Part shown: one piece after another, positions 37,768 through 45,454 of the stretch
Layout: every line of letters starts with the position of its first letter
Numbering within the stretch: position 1 is the stretch's first letter
NCBI GenBank assembly: GCA_013360195.1
Contig: JABWCQ010000005.1
Span: 1 to 64,000 of the forward strand
Origin: a bacterium
GTDB taxonomy: Bacteria > Electryoneota > RPQS01
Length of the DNA stretch: 64,000 bases
Reading direction: 5' to 3'
Notes under the pieces: generated by a model
Seen by the model: only the letters and a program-made list of their open reading frames with translations
The model's database searches: none
Told to the model about the DNA's origin: nothing
Position numbers and translations under genes: made by a program

Positions 37768-40305
37768 ATGTCCCGCAGATTGATTTTATTGTGTTTAGTT
37801 ATTTTTGCAGTAACAGTAACTGTAAATGCAGCACCGGAGGCCGTTCCCGGGCAGGCTCTTGTTCGATTCGCCAACCCAATCACGATTGAACAGGCTCAGG
37901 CTGAATTCAATCCCGGCGAGTTCCGGGTTGAAAAGGTTCTCGTCAGGCAACTCAACATATTCTTGGTAAAATTTGACCCCAAGCTTGACGTCTTGCAGGC
38001 GGTTGACATGCTCAAAGGACATCCAAAGCTACTATGGGCACAGGCTGATCACATTCTCTCGCAGCGAGTCACACCGAACGATCCGCTCTATTCGTCGCAA
38101 TGGGCGTGGTTTCAAGCGACAGACAGAGACATCGATGCACCTGAAGCGTGGGACATCGCGACAGGCGGAACGAATATCGGCGGCGACGATATCGTCGTTG
38201 CGGTTGTCGACGGCGGATGCCTGCTGACACATCCTGACCTTGCCGCGAACATCTGGCAGAACTCCGCCGAAGTGAATGGAGTCAACGGAGTGGATGACGA
38301 CAACAACGGTTACGTGGATGACAGAAACGGTTGGGACGGGTATGCCAACGACGGCACAATTCCCACGGACAACCACGGCACGCATGTTAGCGGAACCATC
38401 GGTGCGGTAACCAACAACGGCAGCATGGTGGCCGGAGTCAATTGGAACGTCAAGATCATGGAAGTGGCCGCTTCGAGCAGCCAAACGTCTGTCATTTCCG
38501 TCGGGTATTGCTACGTGCTCGATCAGAAAACTCTGTGGTGGACAAGCGGCGGCACGCAAGGTGCCAATGTAGTCTCAACAAATTCAAGCTTCGGAGTGGA
38601 CCTCGCCTTCTGCACTTCGGGCAGTTATCCCGTATGGAATGACTTATACAATGCAATGGGCGAAGTGGGCATTCTTTCGGCCTGTGCAACTGCGAATGCG
38701 AATTACAATGTGGACACTCAAGGCGATGTTCCGACAAGCTGCTCGAGTCCGTACATCATCGCAGTAACCAACACAACCAGCTCGGACACCAAAAATTCCG
38801 GCGCGGCTTACGGGGCAACGACCATTGACCTCGGCGCTCCCGGGACTTCCATTACCAGCACAACCTCGAACGGCTCGACCGGTTCCTTGACCGGAACATC
38901 CATGGCCACTCCGCATGTTGCCGGGGCGGTGGCGCTGATGCATTCCGCCGCGAGCCTGGGCTTTTACAACTACTATAATCTCTATCCTGACTCCGGCGCG
39001 CTGGCACTCAAGCAAATGCTCTTGGACGGCACCGACCCGATTGCGGCCCTGGCGGGAATCACGGTTTCGGGCGGCCGCTTGAATCTGTATAACGCTTGTC
39101 TGGCAATTTCCGAATTTGTAGGCCCCAACCCTGAAGAGCCGTATATCACCGTGGCTCAAGCTGTGTCTAACGACACCTTGACAGGCGATGCGGATGGCGC
39201 ATGGGAACGGACGGAACAAGTGGAAATCGTCGTCACCCTGAACAATCTCGGCGAAGACGCGCTGAATGTTCAGGCTACTCTAACGACGCTTGACCCCTAT
39301 GTCACTATCGGGGACGGAATCGGCACCTTTGGGGACATTCCGAATCTTGCCGAAGGTGACAACAGTGCGGATGTGTTTACAGCGACCCTTGCACCGGATG
39401 CTCCGCTGGACCATTCGATTGATTTCGTCCTCACGGTGACCGCGGACAGCGGCTACTCCCGTGAGTTGACCCTAAGCCTCGATGCTAATCCGAAGGTAAC
39501 TTATTTCGAAGAGAATTTTGAAAACGGCTCCGGCGACTGGACGCATGAAATCATCAGCGGAGTCGTTGACCAATGGCACCTTTCCACGGAGCAAAACCAC
39601 ACACCGAACAGTGCCTGGAAGTGCGGTGACACCGGAACGGGAAATTATGCGAACGCGCAGGATGCCGGACTGGTTTCACCGTCAGTTGTGATTGCCGATG
39701 ACAGTGAACTGCGCTTCTGGTATTCTCTGGACAGTGAACTCTCCGTGGCCTACACCGACTCCGCGTACGACGGCGGCAATGTCTGGATTTCCGTCAACGG
39801 TGGACCGTATTCTCTGATTTCTCCGGTCAGCGATTATCCGAAGGACTTCCGCTACCTTGCGGGCGGCGGCAATCCAGCCAGTGGTCCGCAGCCGGGCAAT
39901 CCGTGTTTCGCGGGACCAACGACGTGGCGTGAAACCGTGTTTGACTTGAGCACCTATGCCGATTCAACCGTGCAGTTTCGCTTCAGATTCTCGACCGATG
40001 CGGCCGGCGCGCGCGAAGGCTGGTACATCGACGACGTAAGATTGCTCGGCGCCCCGGGTGCGTCTGCGGCACCGCAGCCCGTGGACGGATTGGTCATTCT
40101 TTCAGAAGGTTACGACACATTTTTGCACTGGCCGCCCTCGTCAACAAATGGTGCCGTGTATAACATCTACATGAGCACTGAACAGAACATCGAACCGGTC
40201 AATGGCACGCTTGTCGCGCAGACCGCTGACACCTTTTACGTGCACTCCGGTATCGTTGACACCAGCGATTACGTCATTTATCAGGTGACAGTCTCGCTGC
40301 CGTAA
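37768..40305 (+). CDS. Secreted subtilisin-like (S8) serine protease
   Basis: An 845-residue exported protease; ATG 37768 has TGGAG eight bases upstream. After the signal peptide (MSRRLILLCLVIFAVTVTVNA) comes an inhibitor-type propeptide (VPGQALVRFANPITIEQAQ), then the S8 domain with the triad Asp in VVAVVDGGCLLTHPDL, His in DNHGTHVSGTIGAV and Ser in GTSMATPHVAGAVALM. The C-terminal ~380 residues are beta-rich: an Ig/CARDB-like part, a jelly-roll with FENGSGDWTHE and SWYIDD-like signatures (GWYIDDVRLLG), and a fibronectin-type end. No T9SS sorting tail is visible, so its export route beyond the inner membrane is unclear. Confidence 0.93.
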   Translation: MSRRLILLCLVIFAVTVTVNAAPEAVPGQALVRFANPITIEQAQAEFNPGEFRVEKVLVRQLNIFLVKFDPKLDVLQAVDMLKGHPKLLWAQADHILSQRVTPNDPLYSSQWAWFQATDRDIDAPEAWDIATGGTNIGGDDIVVAVVDGGCLLTHPDLAANIWQNSAEVNGVNGVDDDNNGYVDDRNGWDGYANDGTIPTDNHGTHVSGTIGAVTNNGSMVAGVNWNVKIMEVAASSSQTSVISVGYCYVLDQKTLWWTSGGTQGANVVSTNSSFGVDLAFCTSGSYPVWNDLYNAMGEVGILSACATANANYNVDTQGDVPTSCSSPYIIAVTNTTSSDTKNSGAAYGATTIDLGAPGTSITSTTSNGSTGSLTGTSMATPHVAGAVALMHSAASLGFYNYYNLYPDSGALALKQMLLDGTDPIAALAGITVSGGRLNLYNACLAISEFVGPNPEEPYITVAQAVSNDTLTGDADGAWERTEQVEIVVTLNNLGEDALNVQATLTTLDPYVTIGDGIGTFGDIPNLAEGDNSADVFTATLAPDAPLDHSIDFVLTVTADSGYSRELTLSLDANPKVTYFEENFENGSGDWTHEIISGVVDQWHLSTEQNHTPNSAWKCGDTGTGNYANAQDAGLVSPSVVIADDSELRFWYSLDSELSVAYTDSAYDGGNVWISVNGGPYSLISPVSDYPKDFRYLAGGGNPASGPQPGNPCFAGPTTWRETVFDLSTYADSTVQFRFRFSTDAAGAREGWYIDDVRLLGAPGASAAPQPVDGLVILSEGYDTFLHWPPSSTNGAVYNIYMSTEQNIEPVNGTLVAQTADTFYVHSGIVDTSDYVIYQVTVSLP

Positions 40306-40332
40306 TATAGACTGATCTGATCAGAATACCGA

Positions 40333-40367
40333 AGCCCCAATGTTGACCGGACATTGGGGCTTTTGGC
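40333..40367. terminator. Bidirectional intrinsic terminator
   Basis: AGCCCCAATG-TTGACCGGA-CATTGGGGCT is a 10-bp stem followed by TTT on the plus strand. It separates the convergent S8 protease and the cysteine operon. Confidence 0.8.
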
Positions 40368-40390
40368 GTTCGCAGGAGAGAAGATGCGAA

Positions 40391-41815
40391 TCAGTATTTC
40401 GGCAGAGAAGTGTCGATGTGATCAGCCCAGGCGAGAATCCCGCCTTCGAGATTATAGATTCTGTCAAATCCCGCAGATTTCAAAGTGTGCCATGCGCGGG
40501 CGCTGCGAATTCCGCTGCGGCATGAAATAACCAGCTCCCGTTCCTTATAGGGCAGAAGTTCGTCAATTCGAAAATCCAGCTCGGCCAGCGGAATGTGTAT
40601 GTCTTCGTCCAGCCGGGCAATATGCAGCTCCTCGATGTTTCGCACATCAAGCACAACAGGCCGCGAGCCGTTGCCGGTTTGCCTCCGCGCGTGCAGCTCG
40701 TGAACCGTCATTTCCTTGACCTGTGTAAGCGCTTGCTCTTCGTTGCCGAGGCCGCAGAATTGCACATAATCAATAGGCTCAATGATGGTCGGATGTTTGC
40801 CGCACAGCGGGCAATCCGGGTCTTTCTTGAGTTCAAACTTATTGAAGGAACTTTCGAGCGCGTCAAATCGCAGCAACGTCCCAATCAACGGTGTTCCGAT
40901 ACCAAGCAGAAGCTTCAGCGCTTCATTCGCCTGAATGGAACCCACGATGCCCGGAAGAACTCCCAGCACTCCTCCCTCCGCGCACGACGGCACAAGCCCG
41001 GGCGGCGGCGGCTCAGGATACAGACAGCGGTAGCACGGTCCATTCTCATCGCAGAAGACTGAGACTTGTCCCTCAAAACGGTAAATACTTGCATAGACAT
41101 TATGCTTCCCGAGAAAATGACTGACATCGTTTACAAGATAGCGTGTCGGGAAATTATCAGTTCCGTCCAGCAATAAGTCATAACTTGCCGCAATCCCAAG
41201 CGCATTCTCCGCCGTGAAATACGTCTCATAGGTTTCGACATGCACATGCGGGTTCAGATTGAAGATGAAATCGCTTGCCGATTTCAGTTTGGAGACACCG
41301 ACGGTCTTGCGTCCGTGAATGATCTGTCGTTGCAGATTCGTTTCATCCACGACATCCGCATCCACGATGCCGATTCTTCCTACACCCGCCGCTGCAAGAT
41401 AGGCCAGCAGCGGGGAGCCAAGCCCCCCTGCTCCGACCACGAGAACGCTTGACTGCTTGAGTTTCCTTTGCCCTTCCACACCCACTTCGGGCAGCAGCAA
41501 GTGCCGGGAATATTGACGATACTCTTGAGTGGTCAAGTTGCCGCCCGCAATAGAGGGAACTATTGTTAACTGCGCACCGTCATCAAGCTTGGTGTCGTGC
41601 TTTTCAGGCAGATGACGCACATCCTGCGTGCCGACATACACATTGACAAAACTGCGCAGTCTGCCCTCTCCGTCAAAGAGATGCTTCTGCAGCGCAGGAT
41701 ATGCGACTGTCAGCGAATGCAGTGCCTCCCGCACCGTCGCCGCCTCCAAATGGACGGATGGTTGGTCAGCGGTAAATCGGCGCAGCACTGTGGGGACTGA
41801 AATCGAAACACTCAT
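40391..41815 (-). CDS. Sulfur-carrier (MoaD/ThiS/CysO) - E1 (MoeB/ThiF) - rhodanese triple fusion
   Basis: A 474-residue three-domain protein. Residues 1-92 are a ubiquitin-like sulfur carrier (ALQKHLFDGEGRLRSFVNVYV) ending in IVPSIAGG. Residues ~93-355 are an adenylating E1 enzyme: nucleotide loop VVGAGGLGSP (127-135), DGTDNFPTRY (217-226), zinc cysteines Cys261, Cys264, Cys335 and Cys338, and Cys278 in PSCAEGGVLG. Residues ~370-474 are a rhodanese with active Cys432 in ISCRSGIRS. Single E1-rhodanese proteins (MoeZ) charge CysO or MoaD with sulfur in actinobacteria. Here the carrier's Gly-Gly is internal, so it must be cut free to be charged. The start overlaps the JAMM protease stop (TAATG). 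Confidence 0.93.
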   Translation of the reverse strand: MSVSISVPTVLRRFTADQPSVHLEAATVREALHSLTVAYPALQKHLFDGEGRLRSFVNVYVGTQDVRHLPEKHDTKLDDGAQLTIVPSIAGGNLTTQEYRQYSRHLLLPEVGVEGQRKLKQSSVLVVGAGGLGSPLLAYLAAAGVGRIGIVDADVVDETNLQRQIIHGRKTVGVSKLKSASDFIFNLNPHVHVETYETYFTAENALGIAASYDLLLDGTDNFPTRYLVNDVSHFLGKHNVYASIYRFEGQVSVFCDENGPCYRCLYPEPPPPGLVPSCAEGGVLGVLPGIVGSIQANEALKLLLGIGTPLIGTLLRFDALESSFNKFELKKDPDCPLCGKHPTIIEPIDYVQFCGLGNEEQALTQVKEMTVHELHARRQTGNGSRPVVLDVRNIEELHIARLDEDIHIPLAELDFRIDELLPYKERELVISCRSGIRSARAWHTLKSAGFDRIYNLEGGILAWADHIDTSLPKY

Positions 41816-42261
41816 TATATTGCAACTCTCTGGTGAATGATTAACTTCTCTTCGCAGTAGCTTTCACGGTCGTCGGCAAGCTGGTAACTCCGAATCTCCG
41901 CAGGCTTCCGGTTGCGAACGGACAAGATGACATAAGAGTAGAACGGCAGCGCGTGTTCGCGGTCAAACTCCGAAGGAATCGCCGGATGATCCGGATGACT
42001 GTGGTAGAATCCGATCAGGTTTAAATCAAGATTCTCCGCGCGCCGTTCCGCTTCAAGGAAGTCTTCCGGAGTGATCAGGAACCGTCGCTCCTTGTTGTCC
42101 TGACGGCTGTTGTCAATCGGAACGACCTCGTGAATAACCCGCTCGTTGCCGACCTCTGTCCCGAACAGAAATCCGCAGCATTCTTCGGGATAGGTTTTCT
42201 GACCGTGCTCATTGATGTCCTCCAATTGACGGAAATGCAGATGAATAATCGGCCTGTTCAT
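41815..42261 (-). CDS. mec: JAMM/MPN metalloprotease (Mec-like)
   Basis: A 148-residue zinc protease. The JAMM motif is complete: Glu26 in TYPEECCGFLFG, then His87-x-His89-x7-Ser97-x2-Asp100 in FYHSHPDHPAIPSEFD. In mycobacteria, Mec removes cysteine from the CysO carrier by cutting after its Gly-Gly. The operon here pairs it with a cysteine synthase and a CysO-like fusion, which fits that role, and it could also release the carrier from the fusion by cutting after Gly92. ATG 42261 overlaps the cysteine synthase stop (TGATG), and its own stop overlaps the next start. Confidence 0.9.
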   Translation of the reverse strand: MNRPIIHLHFRQLEDINEHGQKTYPEECCGFLFGTEVGNERVIHEVVPIDNSRQDNKERRFLITPEDFLEAERRAENLDLNLIGFYHSHPDHPAIPSEFDREHALPFYSYVILSVRNRKPAEIRSYQLADDRESYCEEKLIIHQRVAI

Positions 42262-43223
42262 CAGTTGCCCTCCCACGCCGGTGTTGACAAGTATTTCTCC
42301 GCACCGTCGGGAAAAATCGTAACGACGATTCCATCTTCAAGAGTCTCGGCGAGTTTCATCGCCGCCGCGGCCGATGCTCCGCTGGAAGTGCCCACCAAGA
42401 GTCCCTCTTCGCCGGCAAGCCGCCTGCACATCGTGTAGGCCTCTTCGGTACTGACCTCCAGCTCAATGTCGGACAACTTGCCGTCATATATTTCGGGCAC
42501 ATGGACGGACGGTAAATGCTTCAAGCCTTCCAACCCGTGAAAAGGCGAGTCCGGCTGAAAACTTGCGACAGTGACATGCGGATTGCGCGCTTTCAAATAC
42601 CTGCCGACTCCGGTAAACGTCCCAGTCGTTCCCAGCCCCGAAACAAAATGTGTGACGGCCCCTTCGGTCTGCCGCCATATCTCCGGACCTGTCGTCGTGA
42701 GATGAGCGTTGACATTTGCCGGGTTGGCATACTGATTCAAATAGCAATAGTTCTCAGGGTACTTCTGCTTCAAATCCCGTGCGACCGCTTGCGCTCCGTC
42801 TGTGGAAAGCAGCGGATCCGTGTAGATCAACTCCGCGCCGTAAGCGTGCAGAATCTGTTTGCGTTCCCGGCTGGCATTATCAGGAACGCAAAGCGTGACA
42901 CCGATGCCCAGCGCGGCGCCCAGCATCGCCAGCGCGATGCCCGTATTGCCGCTTGTGGCTTCGAGCACGCGAGTACGCTCGTTAATGCGGTGGTTTCGCA
43001 TCGCATCAGACAGCATCGCCCACGCGGCGCGGTCTTTCACAGAACCGCCGGGATTTTTCCATTCCGCTTTGGCAAACACGCGCACATTTGGGGATAGTCC
43101 TCTGGTTACACCGGCCAGCTCAATCAGCGGTGTGTTCCCTATCAAATGCACCAGCGGGGGTACACTTTGTACGTACCGCGCCGCGCGCGGTGTGATGGTC
43201 AAACTAGTCGCTGGAATACTCAT
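42261..43223 (-). CDS. PLP-dependent cysteine synthase (CysK/CysM family)
   Basis: A 320-residue fold-type II PLP enzyme. Lys63 in WKNPGGSVKDRAAW binds PLP, the substrate loop is EATSGNTGIALAM (88-100), the phosphate loop is FVSGLGTTGTFTGVGRYL, and GLLVGTSSGASAAAAM is near the end. ATG 43223 follows TTGAGGC at the right distance. Sequence does not decide between sulfide and a carrier thiocarboxylate as sulfur donor, but the downstream JAMM and carrier-E1 genes favour the CysM/CysO-type route. It overlaps the JAMM gene by one base and follows the peroxiredoxin by 37 bases. Confidence 0.93.
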   Translation of the reverse strand: MSIPATSLTITPRAARYVQSVPPLVHLIGNTPLIELAGVTRGLSPNVRVFAKAEWKNPGGSVKDRAAWAMLSDAMRNHRINERTRVLEATSGNTGIALAMLGAALGIGVTLCVPDNASRERKQILHAYGAELIYTDPLLSTDGAQAVARDLKQKYPENYCYLNQYANPANVNAHLTTTGPEIWRQTEGAVTHFVSGLGTTGTFTGVGRYLKARNPHVTVASFQPDSPFHGLEGLKHLPSVHVPEIYDGKLSDIELEVSTEEAYTMCRRLAGEEGLLVGTSSGASAAAAMKLAETLEDGIVVTIFPDGAEKYLSTPAWEGN

Positions 43224-43260
43224 CGTTGCCTCAAGTCCATTTCCTTTTTCCTGTCTTGCC

Positions 43261-43944
43261 TTAGTTTGCAGCCGGGATCCTGCGCTTGCTGAAATACCAG
43301 TCTGTGTATTCATCCGCCTCGGCTTTGCGGTTTTCAGCGACGGTGACGTATTGCGGCGGCGGAATAATGCACGGCTCGCCCGGATGCCAGTTCTCGGGAG
43401 TCGCCAGTCCATGTTTGTCCGTGGTCTGCAGCGCATCCAGAATTCTGATCACCTCGTCAATCGAACGGCCGTTTGAGAGAGGATAGTAAATCATCGCCCG
43501 AATTACACCCTTGTCGTCAATGACAAACACAGCTCGCACTGCGGAGGTGTCGCTTGCCTCCGGATGCAGCATGCCGTATGCGCGCGCGACATCGCCTTTC
43601 AAGTCGGCAATCAACGGAAATGGAATCGGTTGATTGAATTTCTCTTCGATGTTCCGAAGCCACGCGATATGTGAGTAAATGGAATCTATCGACAAGCCGA
43701 TGACTTGTGTATTTCTCTTGGCAAATTCCTCATGCTTGCGGGCGAATCCCAGAAACTCGGTTGTGCATACGGGAGTAAAGTCAGCCGGGTGAGAAAAGAG
43801 CACCACCCATTTCCCGCGGTAATCGGAAAGTCTGAGGTCTCCCTGCGTGGTCTTGGCCGTGAAGTCAGGCGCGGGAGTATTGATTCTCGGCAGCGTAATC
43901 TGTGCCGTTGTTGAAGTTCCGTTTGTTGTTCCGTTCGTGCTCAT
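43261..43944 (-). CDS. Peroxiredoxin, Prx6/1-Cys type
   Basis: A 227-residue thiol peroxidase. The peroxidatic Cys60 is in FSHPADFTPVCTTEFLGF. The rest follows the Prx6 pattern (GLSIDSIYSHIAWL, PFPLIADLKGDVARAYGMLH, VFVIDDKGVIRAM) with the long C-terminal extension (WHPGEPCIIPPP). ATG 43944 follows AAGGAAGAG. It is the first structural gene after the cysteine leader and attenuator, so peroxide defence and cysteine synthesis seem to be co-regulated here. Confidence 0.94.
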   Translation of the reverse strand: MSTNGTTNGTSTTAQITLPRINTPAPDFTAKTTQGDLRLSDYRGKWVVLFSHPADFTPVCTTEFLGFARKHEEFAKRNTQVIGLSIDSIYSHIAWLRNIEEKFNQPIPFPLIADLKGDVARAYGMLHPEASDTSAVRAVFVIDDKGVIRAMIYYPLSNGRSIDEVIRILDALQTTDKHGLATPENWHPGEPCIIPPPQYVTVAENRKAEADEYTDWYFSKRRIPAAN

Positions 43945-43984
43945 GTCTCTTCCTTGGACTGCGAATTTTAGCGTTTTCATTTTC

Positions 43985-44024
43985 TAAGCAACAAAAAACC
44001 CCCTCGCGATAGCAAGGGGGTTTT
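43985..44024 (-). terminator. Attenuator terminator of the cysteine operon
   Basis: On the minus strand AAAACCCCCTTGC-TATC-GCGAGGGGGTTTT is a 13-bp stem with one G-T, then TTGTTGCTT. It lies 25 bases after the stop codon of the cysteine-codon leader ORF and 41 bases before the peroxiredoxin ATG. The plus strand also has a short TTTT, but no plus-strand gene ends here. Confidence 0.85.
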
Positions 44025-44048
44025 CAACATTCTAATGCGGTTACCGTG

Positions 44049-44126
44049 TCATTCAGTCACGGACATGCGCACACAACCACCCTCGCCATGGGAGCGGGTC
44101 TGACAACAACACAGACAAGTGGTCAT
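44049..44126 (-). CDS. Cysteine-rich leader peptide of the cysteine operon (25 codons)
   Basis: ATG 44126 to TGA 44049. It begins MTTCLCCCQ, with Cys codons at positions 4, 6, 7 and 8 and another at 18; the rest is TRSHGEGGCVRMSVTE. It starts about 17 nt after the predicted transcription start, with no Shine-Dalgarno sequence. The codons for Gly-Glu-Gly-Gly-Cys contain GCGAGGGTGGTT (44086-44075), which can pair with the left terminator arm over 11 bp. A ribosome waiting at the Cys run would leave that segment free and prevent termination. Poly-cysteine leader ORFs of this kind are known to attenuate cysteine operons in mycobacteria; one in this type of bacterium is new to me. Confidence 0.75.
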   Translation of the reverse strand: MTTCLCCCQTRSHGEGGCVRMSVTE

Positions 44127-44147
44127 TTTTTGGGTACGCATAAATAC

Positions 44148-44177
44148 AAGATACACTCGCCGAGGGGGTGAAGTCAA
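44148..44177 (-). promoter_or_regulatory. Promoter of the cysteine operon
   Basis: Minus strand: TTGACT (44177-44172), an 18-bp spacer, TATCTT (44153-44148). The predicted start gives a leader of about 200 nt holding the cysteine-codon ORF and attenuator. Confidence 0.65.
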
Positions 44178-44392
44178 GAGCTCGGATAAAGAATTCCAAA
44201 AATTCTTTTGCAGTTCCTCATATTATTCTAACACAGATTTAACTAATTGTGTGAGCTAATAATTCAGAGGCTTCAAACAAGAGGCCGTAAATACCTCCAA
44301 AACAAGCAATTCTCCGTTGAGAAAGTGAGGGAAATGTGATACTTTGTGACATTCAAACTGCCTTGACCCCCTCGACCTTCGCCCGTCCAATC

Positions 44393-45454
44393 ATGCGACG
44401 ACTGACTCTGTTTCTTCTTGTTTTTACTGTTCCTATGTCTGCCTTTGCTACAGACGACCTGCCGTTATGGCTTGTAAACACGAAACTTAGCGGTGATTTT
44501 CGTTACCGGCATGAAGGAATCGACCGTGAAGGTGGGTCAGCAACCTATCGTAACCGGATTCGGTACCGCCTCGGCATCGATACCAAGGTCAATGAGAAGG
44601 TCTTGGTCGGGGCGCGGTTTGCCTCCGGCGTGGGCGATCCACGTTCCACGAATCAGGACCTCGAAGATGGCCTCTCTGCAAAATCCATAAATCTCGATCG
44701 CGCCTTTTTCGAACTCACACCCTGTGACCACTGGTGGGTTACCGCCGGCAAATTCGGCAATCCCTTTGTGTCCACCGACCTCCATTGGGATGCCGATGTG
44801 AATTTTGAGGGCGGCGCGATTCGCTATTCCTCGGGAGAAGAGGTTCGCTTCGCCGTTACAGGTGGAGGCATTTGGCTCGAACCCTACAAGGCAGAGCACG
44901 GCAGCGGTATTTGGGCTGGCCAACTATCCGCCAGCGGCAAACATGGTTCGAAGGGAACCTGGCAAGCCTCGGCCGGCCTATACTCCTATGTTAATCGAAA
45001 CATGCTGGCAGGCACAAGCAGCTACGGGAACAGCATTGGGGACAACGGCATGTTCCGCTCCGACTTCGAAATTCTCGATATCGTGGCGCAAGTGACGATG
45101 CCCGTCGGCAAATCCAAGCTGACAGTCACTGCCAATCCCGTTCTGAACACGGCAACCTCAAGTGACAACATCGGCTGGTTGGCAATGCTGAAGTTGGGCG
45201 GGAAATGCTGGGATAGAAAGTGTTCATTGTCCTACGACTATCGCGTTCTTGAAGCGGACGCACTGTTTGGAGCATTTACAGACAGCGATGCGGCCGGCGG
45301 CAGAACCAATCAGCGCGGACACCGAATCATGGGCGATATTGAGCTGATGGACGGCTTCACCACCGGAGCATCAGCGTACTTCAATACCCTTTCCGCCTCC
45401 GGTGAAGGCGACTGGTATCAGCGATGGATGGTGGATGGAGTCGTGAAATTCTAA
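44393..45454 (+). CDS. Putative outer-membrane porin at the head of the phosphate uptake genes
   Basis: A 353-residue barrel with signal peptide (MRRLTLFLLVFTVPMSAFA). Alternating strands and typical porin phrases are visible (LSGDFRYRHEGIDREGG, RNRIRYRLGIDTKVN, FELTPCDHWWVTAGKFGNPF), and it ends in Phe (WMVDGVVKF). ATG 44393 gives a normal signal peptide but has no ribosome-binding site; GTG 44336 has GAGGG at a good distance and would add 19 residues. The next gene is pstS, so it may let phosphate across the outer membrane, though no specificity can be read. Confidence 0.82.
   Translation: MRRLTLFLLVFTVPMSAFATDDLPLWLVNTKLSGDFRYRHEGIDREGGSATYRNRIRYRLGIDTKVNEKVLVGARFASGVGDPRSTNQDLEDGLSAKSINLDRAFFELTPCDHWWVTAGKFGNPFVSTDLHWDADVNFEGGAIRYSSGEEVRFAVTGGGIWLEPYKAEHGSGIWAGQLSASGKHGSKGTWQASAGLYSYVNRNMLAGTSSYGNSIGDNGMFRSDFEILDIVAQVTMPVGKSKLTVTANPVLNTATSSDNIGWLAMLKLGGKCWDRKCSLSYDYRVLEADALFGAFTDSDAAGGRTNQRGHRIMGDIELMDGFTTGASAYFNTLSASGEGDWYQRWMVDGVVKF

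Follow-up and report, generated by a model that had tools for sequence, protein, structure and literature searches.

Upstream of a cysteine operon in the window (the whole 64,000-nt stretch of DNA analysed here) lies what is very probably a ribosome-mediated transcription attenuator that responds to cysteine; the mRNA encoding its leader peptide would be leaderless. A Cys-rich ORF and two competing RNA hairpins probably act together to turn on cysteine-making genes at cysteine shortage. The promoter, the Cys-codon ORF, the terminator and the antiterminator copy named in the initial annotation are all present at the sites given there, on the (-) strand, and its reading of them as a ribosome-mediated attenuator is supported by seven genomes that carry the Cys run, the terminator and an antiterminator with compensatory changes. 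The genome, of which the window is contig C5, measures 3.2 Mb in 46 contigs at ~96% completeness; the collection used has 11 genomes of its family and 39 of its phylum.

Architecture of the leader and its operon

The promoter, the Cys-run ORF and the intrinsic terminator form one unit (window 44177-43993, (-) strand) upstream of Prx-CysM-Mec-(ThiS-ThiF-rhodanese) (Table 1). The porin gene on the other side of the leader is divergent and no (-) strand gene lies directly upstream of the leader. Because of this divergent arrangement, the terminator can only belong to the transcription unit of the cysteine operon.

Table 1. Elements of the predicted attenuator and genes of the operon, in window coordinates.
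Feature	Position	Strand	Remarks
-35 hexamer TTGACT	44172..44177	(-)	18-nt spacer; TTGAC invariant in 7/7 relatives
-10 hexamer TATCTT	44148..44153	(-)	ends 6 nt 5' of the ATG
Leader peptide ORF, 30 codons, MRTQKMTTCLCCCQTRSHGEGGCVRMSVTE	44049..44141	(-)	without Shine-Dalgarno
Regulatory Cys run, codons 9, 11, 12 and 13, all UGU	44103..44117	(-)	run kept in 7/7 relatives
Segment 1, 5' side of the predicted protector hairpin	44112..44126	(-)	from MFE folds; partner 44082-44068
Segment 2, antiterminator arm GCGAGGGTGGTT	44075..44086	(-)	copy of the terminator right arm within the ORF
Segment 3, terminator left arm AAAACCCCCTTGC	44012..44024	(-)	also pairs with segment 2
Segment 4, terminator right arm and T-run	43993..44008	(-)	
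Peroxiredoxin, 1-Cys-type C-terminus	43261..43944	(-)	probable start 43944, preceded by AAGGA
CysM-type cysteine synthase	42261..43223	(-)	
Mec-like JAMM/JAB metalloprotease	41815..42276	(-)	
ThiS-ThiF-rhodanese fusion	40391..41815	(-)	sulfur carrier, activating enzyme and sulfurtransferase in a single chain

The predicted promoter, TTGACT-18-TATCTT, is sigma-70-like. The ORF behind it had been described as having 25 codons with Cys at codons 4, 6, 7 and 8; these positions are correct when the ORF is read from an internal ATG at 44126, but the start codon is probably 44141, since the sister genome (G002) likewise encodes MRTQK but has CTG in place of the internal ATG. Read from 44141, the ORF has 30 codons, with a fifth Cys at codon 23 and the stop codon at 44051-44049. 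Cys makes up 1.6% of codons in the window, and the chance of four Cys in five codons is ~3e-7 per position. Among the Cys codons of the leaders UGU is used in 24 of 34 cases, compared with 95 of 278 in the genes of the window (p 6e-5).

The gap between the -10 box and the ATG is 6 nt in six of the seven leaders and 9 nt in G003, a genome from another genus, and no Shine-Dalgarno sequence precedes the ATG. Because the ATG lies 6 nt past the -10 box in six genomes and lacks a Shine-Dalgarno sequence, the leader mRNA is probably leaderless. Judged by this spacing, transcription probably starts at or adjacent to the A of the ATG at 44141. A comparable leaderless-type layout occurs in only two of the 41 long ORFs of the window.

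The intrinsic terminator (44025-43994, (-) strand) has the sequence AAAACCCCCTTGC-TATC-GCGAGGGGGTTTTTT, with 14 pairs followed by the T-run. As claimed in the initial annotation, an 11-bp duplex with a single bulged U and one G-U can form between GCGAGGGTGGTT (44086-44075) and AACCCCCTTGC; the energy of this antiterminator duplex is -17.2 kcal/mol, better than in 500 of 500 dinucleotide shuffles. The window leader as a whole folds with z -4.0 and is more stable than 200/200 shuffles. The proposed protector pairing of ACCCGC with GCGAGGGT is present as a local pairing, but a longer hairpin that joins 44126-44112 to 44082-44068 is predicted as the main protector.

Two features of the structural genes were observed alongside. 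The reading frame of the peroxiredoxin extends upstream (window 43941-43988) and its earliest ATG, at 43980, is directly 3' of the terminator; the start that bears an RBS is the one at 43944, and automatic annotation may extend the protein by 12 surplus residues. In the single ThiS-ThiF-rhodanese chain the Gly-Gly of the carrier (SIAGG-NLTTQEY) sits internally, and the JAMM protease could be required for freeing a functional sulfur carrier from the fusion.

The leader is kept in relatives while the operon behind it varies

With Mec as a probe two related operons were found, in G002 (CysM-Mec-ThiS-ThiF-rhodanese, without the peroxiredoxin) and in G003 (the same operon type with a peroxiredoxin), both of which have the Cys-run ORF and the terminator. 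When the upstream regions of all cysteine synthase genes in the phylum were inspected, four further leaders came to light, three of them before a CBS-domain cysteine synthase (G001, G007 and G009) and one before cysK-cysE (G004). The leader unit is therefore present in one copy each in seven of the 11 family genomes, belonging to six genera, and always upstream of a cysteine synthase, be it CysM, CysK-CysE or the CBS-domain type. Mec itself occurs in only three of the 39 phylum genomes and as an operon marker would miss four of the seven leaders; cysteine synthase is the right probe.

The seven leader peptides are MRTQKMTTCLCCCQTRSHGEGGCVRMSVTE, MRTQKLATCLCCCHSPSMCEGGVVSYARD, MIHQPSHNTCCCCPCWKYPPAKFGLVLPPN, MMNTATDCTCLCCLILREVKGRLRASMS, MQNLSRNLCCVCCTVTPEGEG, MRKTICNCCCACCPLPVWVKGHVRSSVC and MIRFTTTTCACCCPRLLGKGNGVVALV. 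They contain four to six Cys codons, with the run located at codons 6-15. The promoter, the Cys run, the antiterminator arm and the terminator follow one another at near-constant spacing (178-189 nt from the -35 box to the T-run in all seven genomes), and a G+C-rich terminator with a T-run is found in every one of them. A covariance model gives a single strong match (114-158 bits) in each of the seven genomes used to build it; when the phylum was scanned with this model no copy was detected beyond these source genomes, the other matches (at most ~25 bits) being generic terminators. The leader was not found in the other four family genomes, of which three are 88-91% and one 56% complete, nor does a comparable leader precede the other cysteine synthase genes of the window genome and of G002.

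In G004 the slot of the leader (loci L155/L097, compared with window 37768-45454) has the same neighbours as in the window, the porin and the subtilase, the two subtilases being 63% identical over 549 aa. Between these common flanks lies cysK-cysE in G004 and Prx-CysM-Mec-ThiS-ThiF-rhodanese in the window. The predicted regulatory unit has remained in its slot, and the operon behind it differs between relatives. The initial annotation had the leader driving a peroxiredoxin plus a carrier-dependent cysteine route. This combination holds for the window genome and G003 but not for G002, which has no peroxiredoxin, nor for the remaining genomes with their cysK-cysE or CBS-domain synthases. Because G004 has the same slot and leader with a cysK-cysE operon, there is strong evidence that the predicted switch is there for cysteine supply in itself and is tied neither to the carrier-dependent route nor to the peroxiredoxin.

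Several other candidates were set aside. Cys-rich short ORFs upstream of CysM at loci L018, L050, L068, L071, L079, L080, L082 and L090 were judged to be due to chance or to lie within other genes, because they lack either the promoter spacing or a position near the gene. Leaderless candidates with two Cys elsewhere in the phylum (L189, L192, L201 and L204) are weaker and unconvincing. At L192 (~1329, minus strand), in another family of the phylum, the leaderless-looking ORF has seven codons (MLPVSCC) and stands before a gene for a protein with a CPLC-type thiol motif.

Covariation of the antiterminator

For each leader the best partner of the terminator left arm was sought between the Cys run and the terminator. 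In all seven, segment 2 is located inside the ORF and starts 15-17 nt past the first nucleotide of the run's final Cys codon. The duplexes of segments 2 and 3 have z values of -5.2, -5.2, -2.2, -2.5, -2.4, -3.0 and -3.3, giving a summed z of -8.5; their summed energy is -105.6 kcal/mol and the minimum of the shuffle sets is -73.3 kcal/mol. Control arms (the reversed arm and the reverse-complement arm) gave no consistent duplex signal.

RNAalifold applied to a MAFFT alignment shows the terminator only, because segment 2 is out of register in that alignment; for the same reason a composite alignment, with its register placed by hand from the duplexes, was used to count the antiterminator pairs. 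In this composite the 8-bp core of the antiterminator has standard pairs in 96% of cells, and four of the eight pairs show two-sided changes (C-G/U-G/U-A, G-C/G-U/A-U, A-U/G-C and G-C/G-U/U-A). No two-sided changes are seen when the partner is slid, and three of 500 shuffles reach the same level. Changes in segment 3 are constrained from both sides, since it also pairs with segment 4. The comparison among relatives that had been put forward as a check of the annotation came out in its favour in the seven genomes: Cys codons are retained, the antiterminator has compensatory changes and the terminator is kept at near-fixed spacing.

Folding with ribosome positions and the proposed mechanism

The alternative pairings were predicted with a ribosome masking different parts of the leader. 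For a ribosome placed on the first Cys codon, 2:3 is predicted in each of the seven transcripts that stop at segment 3, and five of the seven full transcripts retain it. With the ribosome at the stop codon, pair probabilities favour 3:4 in seven of seven full transcripts, least clearly in G002. Transcripts that end at segment 3 and carry no ribosome already give 2:3 in six of seven cases, and moving the ribosome to the last Cys codon restores 3:4 in five of seven full transcripts. As static folding gives both of these latter results, the switch must depend on ordered, co-transcriptional folding, as in other attenuators. The protector hairpin is clear in several leaders and weak in G003 and G007, its position is not conserved, and before segment 4 is made it is mostly not favoured over 2:3 in the folding predictions.

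From the elements, their conservation, spacing and covariation we infer the start site, the stalling, the termination and the response to cysteine, as follows. With transcription starting at or adjacent to the leader ATG, a ribosome would load once the 5' end emerges. With ample Cys-tRNA it would pass the Cys run and segment 2; segment 2 would be occupied at first and later refold into the protector hairpin, so that segment 3 could pair with segment 4 and RNA polymerase would terminate upstream of the cysteine operon. When Cys-tRNA runs short, the ribosome would halt at the UGU codons with its footprint covering segment 1 and ending just before segment 2. Since segment 1 overlaps the Cys run, a ribosome stalled there would disrupt it; segment 2 would capture segment 3, no terminator would form and the operon would be transcribed.

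Other explanations of the leader

Translational or Rho-dependent attenuation, in which the Cys run would govern access to a downstream RBS or to Rho and the terminator would be incidental, is an unlikely reading of these leaders. It draws on mycobacteria, for which a leaderless poly-Cys layout is likewise reported (PMC9031893) and no terminator was found (PMC1262725), and on the Acidobacteriota leaders described below, most of which have no intrinsic terminator. In the family studied here, however, all seven leaders keep the terminator together with a covarying antiterminator that is aimed exactly at its left arm, and in the window the start codon of the operon lies ~50 nt past the terminator.

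That the ORF encodes a functional small Cys-rich peptide (for metal or thiol chemistry), with the terminator merely separating it from the operon, would account for the high Cys content and for the retention of the ORF in seven genomes. We consider this very improbable, as the peptide sequences diverge strongly outside the Cys run (LCCCQTRSHGEGG, CCCCPCWKYPPAKF, CCVCCTVTPEGEG) whereas the RNA pairing is kept, and an NCBIfam scan of the leader peptides returned no meaningful match to a leader or small-peptide family. Terminator-type leaders of the riboswitch and T-box kinds control cysteine genes in other bacteria, but an Rfam scan of the leader found no riboswitch, T-box or SAM riboswitch at gathering score, its best matches being sub-threshold terminator look-alikes; that an ordinary terminator happens by chance to follow a Cys-rich ORF is excluded by the conservation in seven genomes, the fixed spacing and the covariation. 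A ligand-sensing riboswitch, a T-box-like terminator or such a coincidence is thus hardly credible as the origin of the leader, and ribosome-mediated transcription attenuation is the reading we prefer.

Leaders in Acidobacteriota and wider meaning

We surveyed 76 loci with a related CysM, mostly from Acidobacteriota (1.19 Mb). In two Acidobacteriaceae, CysM is directly preceded by TTGACn-17-TATACT-6-ATG and an ORF containing CCCC; no further site of this kind with both promoter boxes occurs in the 1.19 Mb. The layout pattern matches 17 of 396 Acidobacteriota genomes and the reversed pattern has two matches in total; the same search in Chloroflexota gave none in 151 genomes. The Acidobacteriota matches (L158-L188) are leaderless-looking short ORFs with an in-frame CCC run, for example MHMQHSFCCCRRSPLA and MHTASRLCCCCR, at no more than five per genome. 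In 26 of 26 distinct leaders CCC is in frame (expected, one third), and four of these leaders also show an intrinsic terminator. The downstream genes encode TlpA/AhpC-TSA-type redoxins, a formylglycine-generating-enzyme-like protein, TonB-type receptors, a LysR regulator and CysM.

Taken together, the Acidobacteriota CCC leaders look like an undescribed cysteine-sensing regulon. They suggest that a whole regulon has been missed by annotation, the ORFs having just 12-42 codons and apparently no leader sequence in front of them. A literature search on leader-peptide cysteine attenuation in Acidobacteria yielded only a general attenuator survey, which does not mention such leaders. It is on balance plausible that leaderless poly-Cys leaders are a general, cross-phylum readout of cysteine status, acting through a covarying terminator and antiterminator here, forming a multi-gene sulfur and thiol-redox regulon in Acidobacteriota and acting on translation in mycobacteria.

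If the proposed mechanism is correct, an ORF beginning at base 1 would couple the first ribosome directly to RNA polymerase. Uncultured lineages gain a predicted cysteine sensor, which flags which of several cysteine routes is regulated, and one switch appears to stay in position while the operon behind it varies.

Comparison with known systems

With the trp and his attenuators the leader shares codons for the end product in a leader ORF, mutually exclusive 2:3 antiterminator and 3:4 terminator pairings and a predicted 1:2 protector, the last being weak in two of the leaders. At the sequence level it has three features of that class: a Cys run before a cysteine synthase in seven of seven genomes, an intrinsic terminator and a covarying antiterminator. 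It differs from them in that cysteine would be sensed, in that it is probably leaderless, whereas classical leaders have a Shine-Dalgarno sequence, and in that segment 2 lies within the ORF, before the stop codon.

A terminator-type cysteine attenuator is not without precedent, since the uORFC-8-2 motif is a predicted attenuator of this type before cysS in Rhodobacterales (PMC8632094), likewise with Cys codons and an intrinsic terminator. That motif belongs to Alphaproteobacteria and has two tandem Cys codons at positions 14-15, whereas the leaders described here have four to six Cys codons, precede cysteine synthases and show the leaderless layout. The cys/cbs leader peptides of Actinobacteria also have Cys runs upstream of cys operons and cbs (Seliverstov et al., 2005; PMC1262725), but there the runs are close to the stop codon and no terminator or antiterminator was found (PMC1262725).

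The polycysteine short ORFs of mycobacteria, leaderless according to PMC9031893, are similar in placing a Cys run within a short ORF at the very front of the mRNA, before cysteine genes, the signal being the cysteine-dependent speed of the ribosome. As cited in PMC13236596 and PMC9031893, the cysteine leader peptides of M. smegmatis act on translation (Canestrari et al., 2020). This translational attenuation, in a group where no terminator was found (PMC1262725), differs from the intrinsic terminator and covarying antiterminator found here, in an unrelated phylum. Nothing similar turned up for this phylum in the literature searched, and what appears to be new is a terminator-type, probably leaderless attenuator before several kinds of cysteine synthase. 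The leader would combine the leaderless cysteine-counting ORF of mycobacteria with the classical terminator-type attenuator, which until now were known separately.
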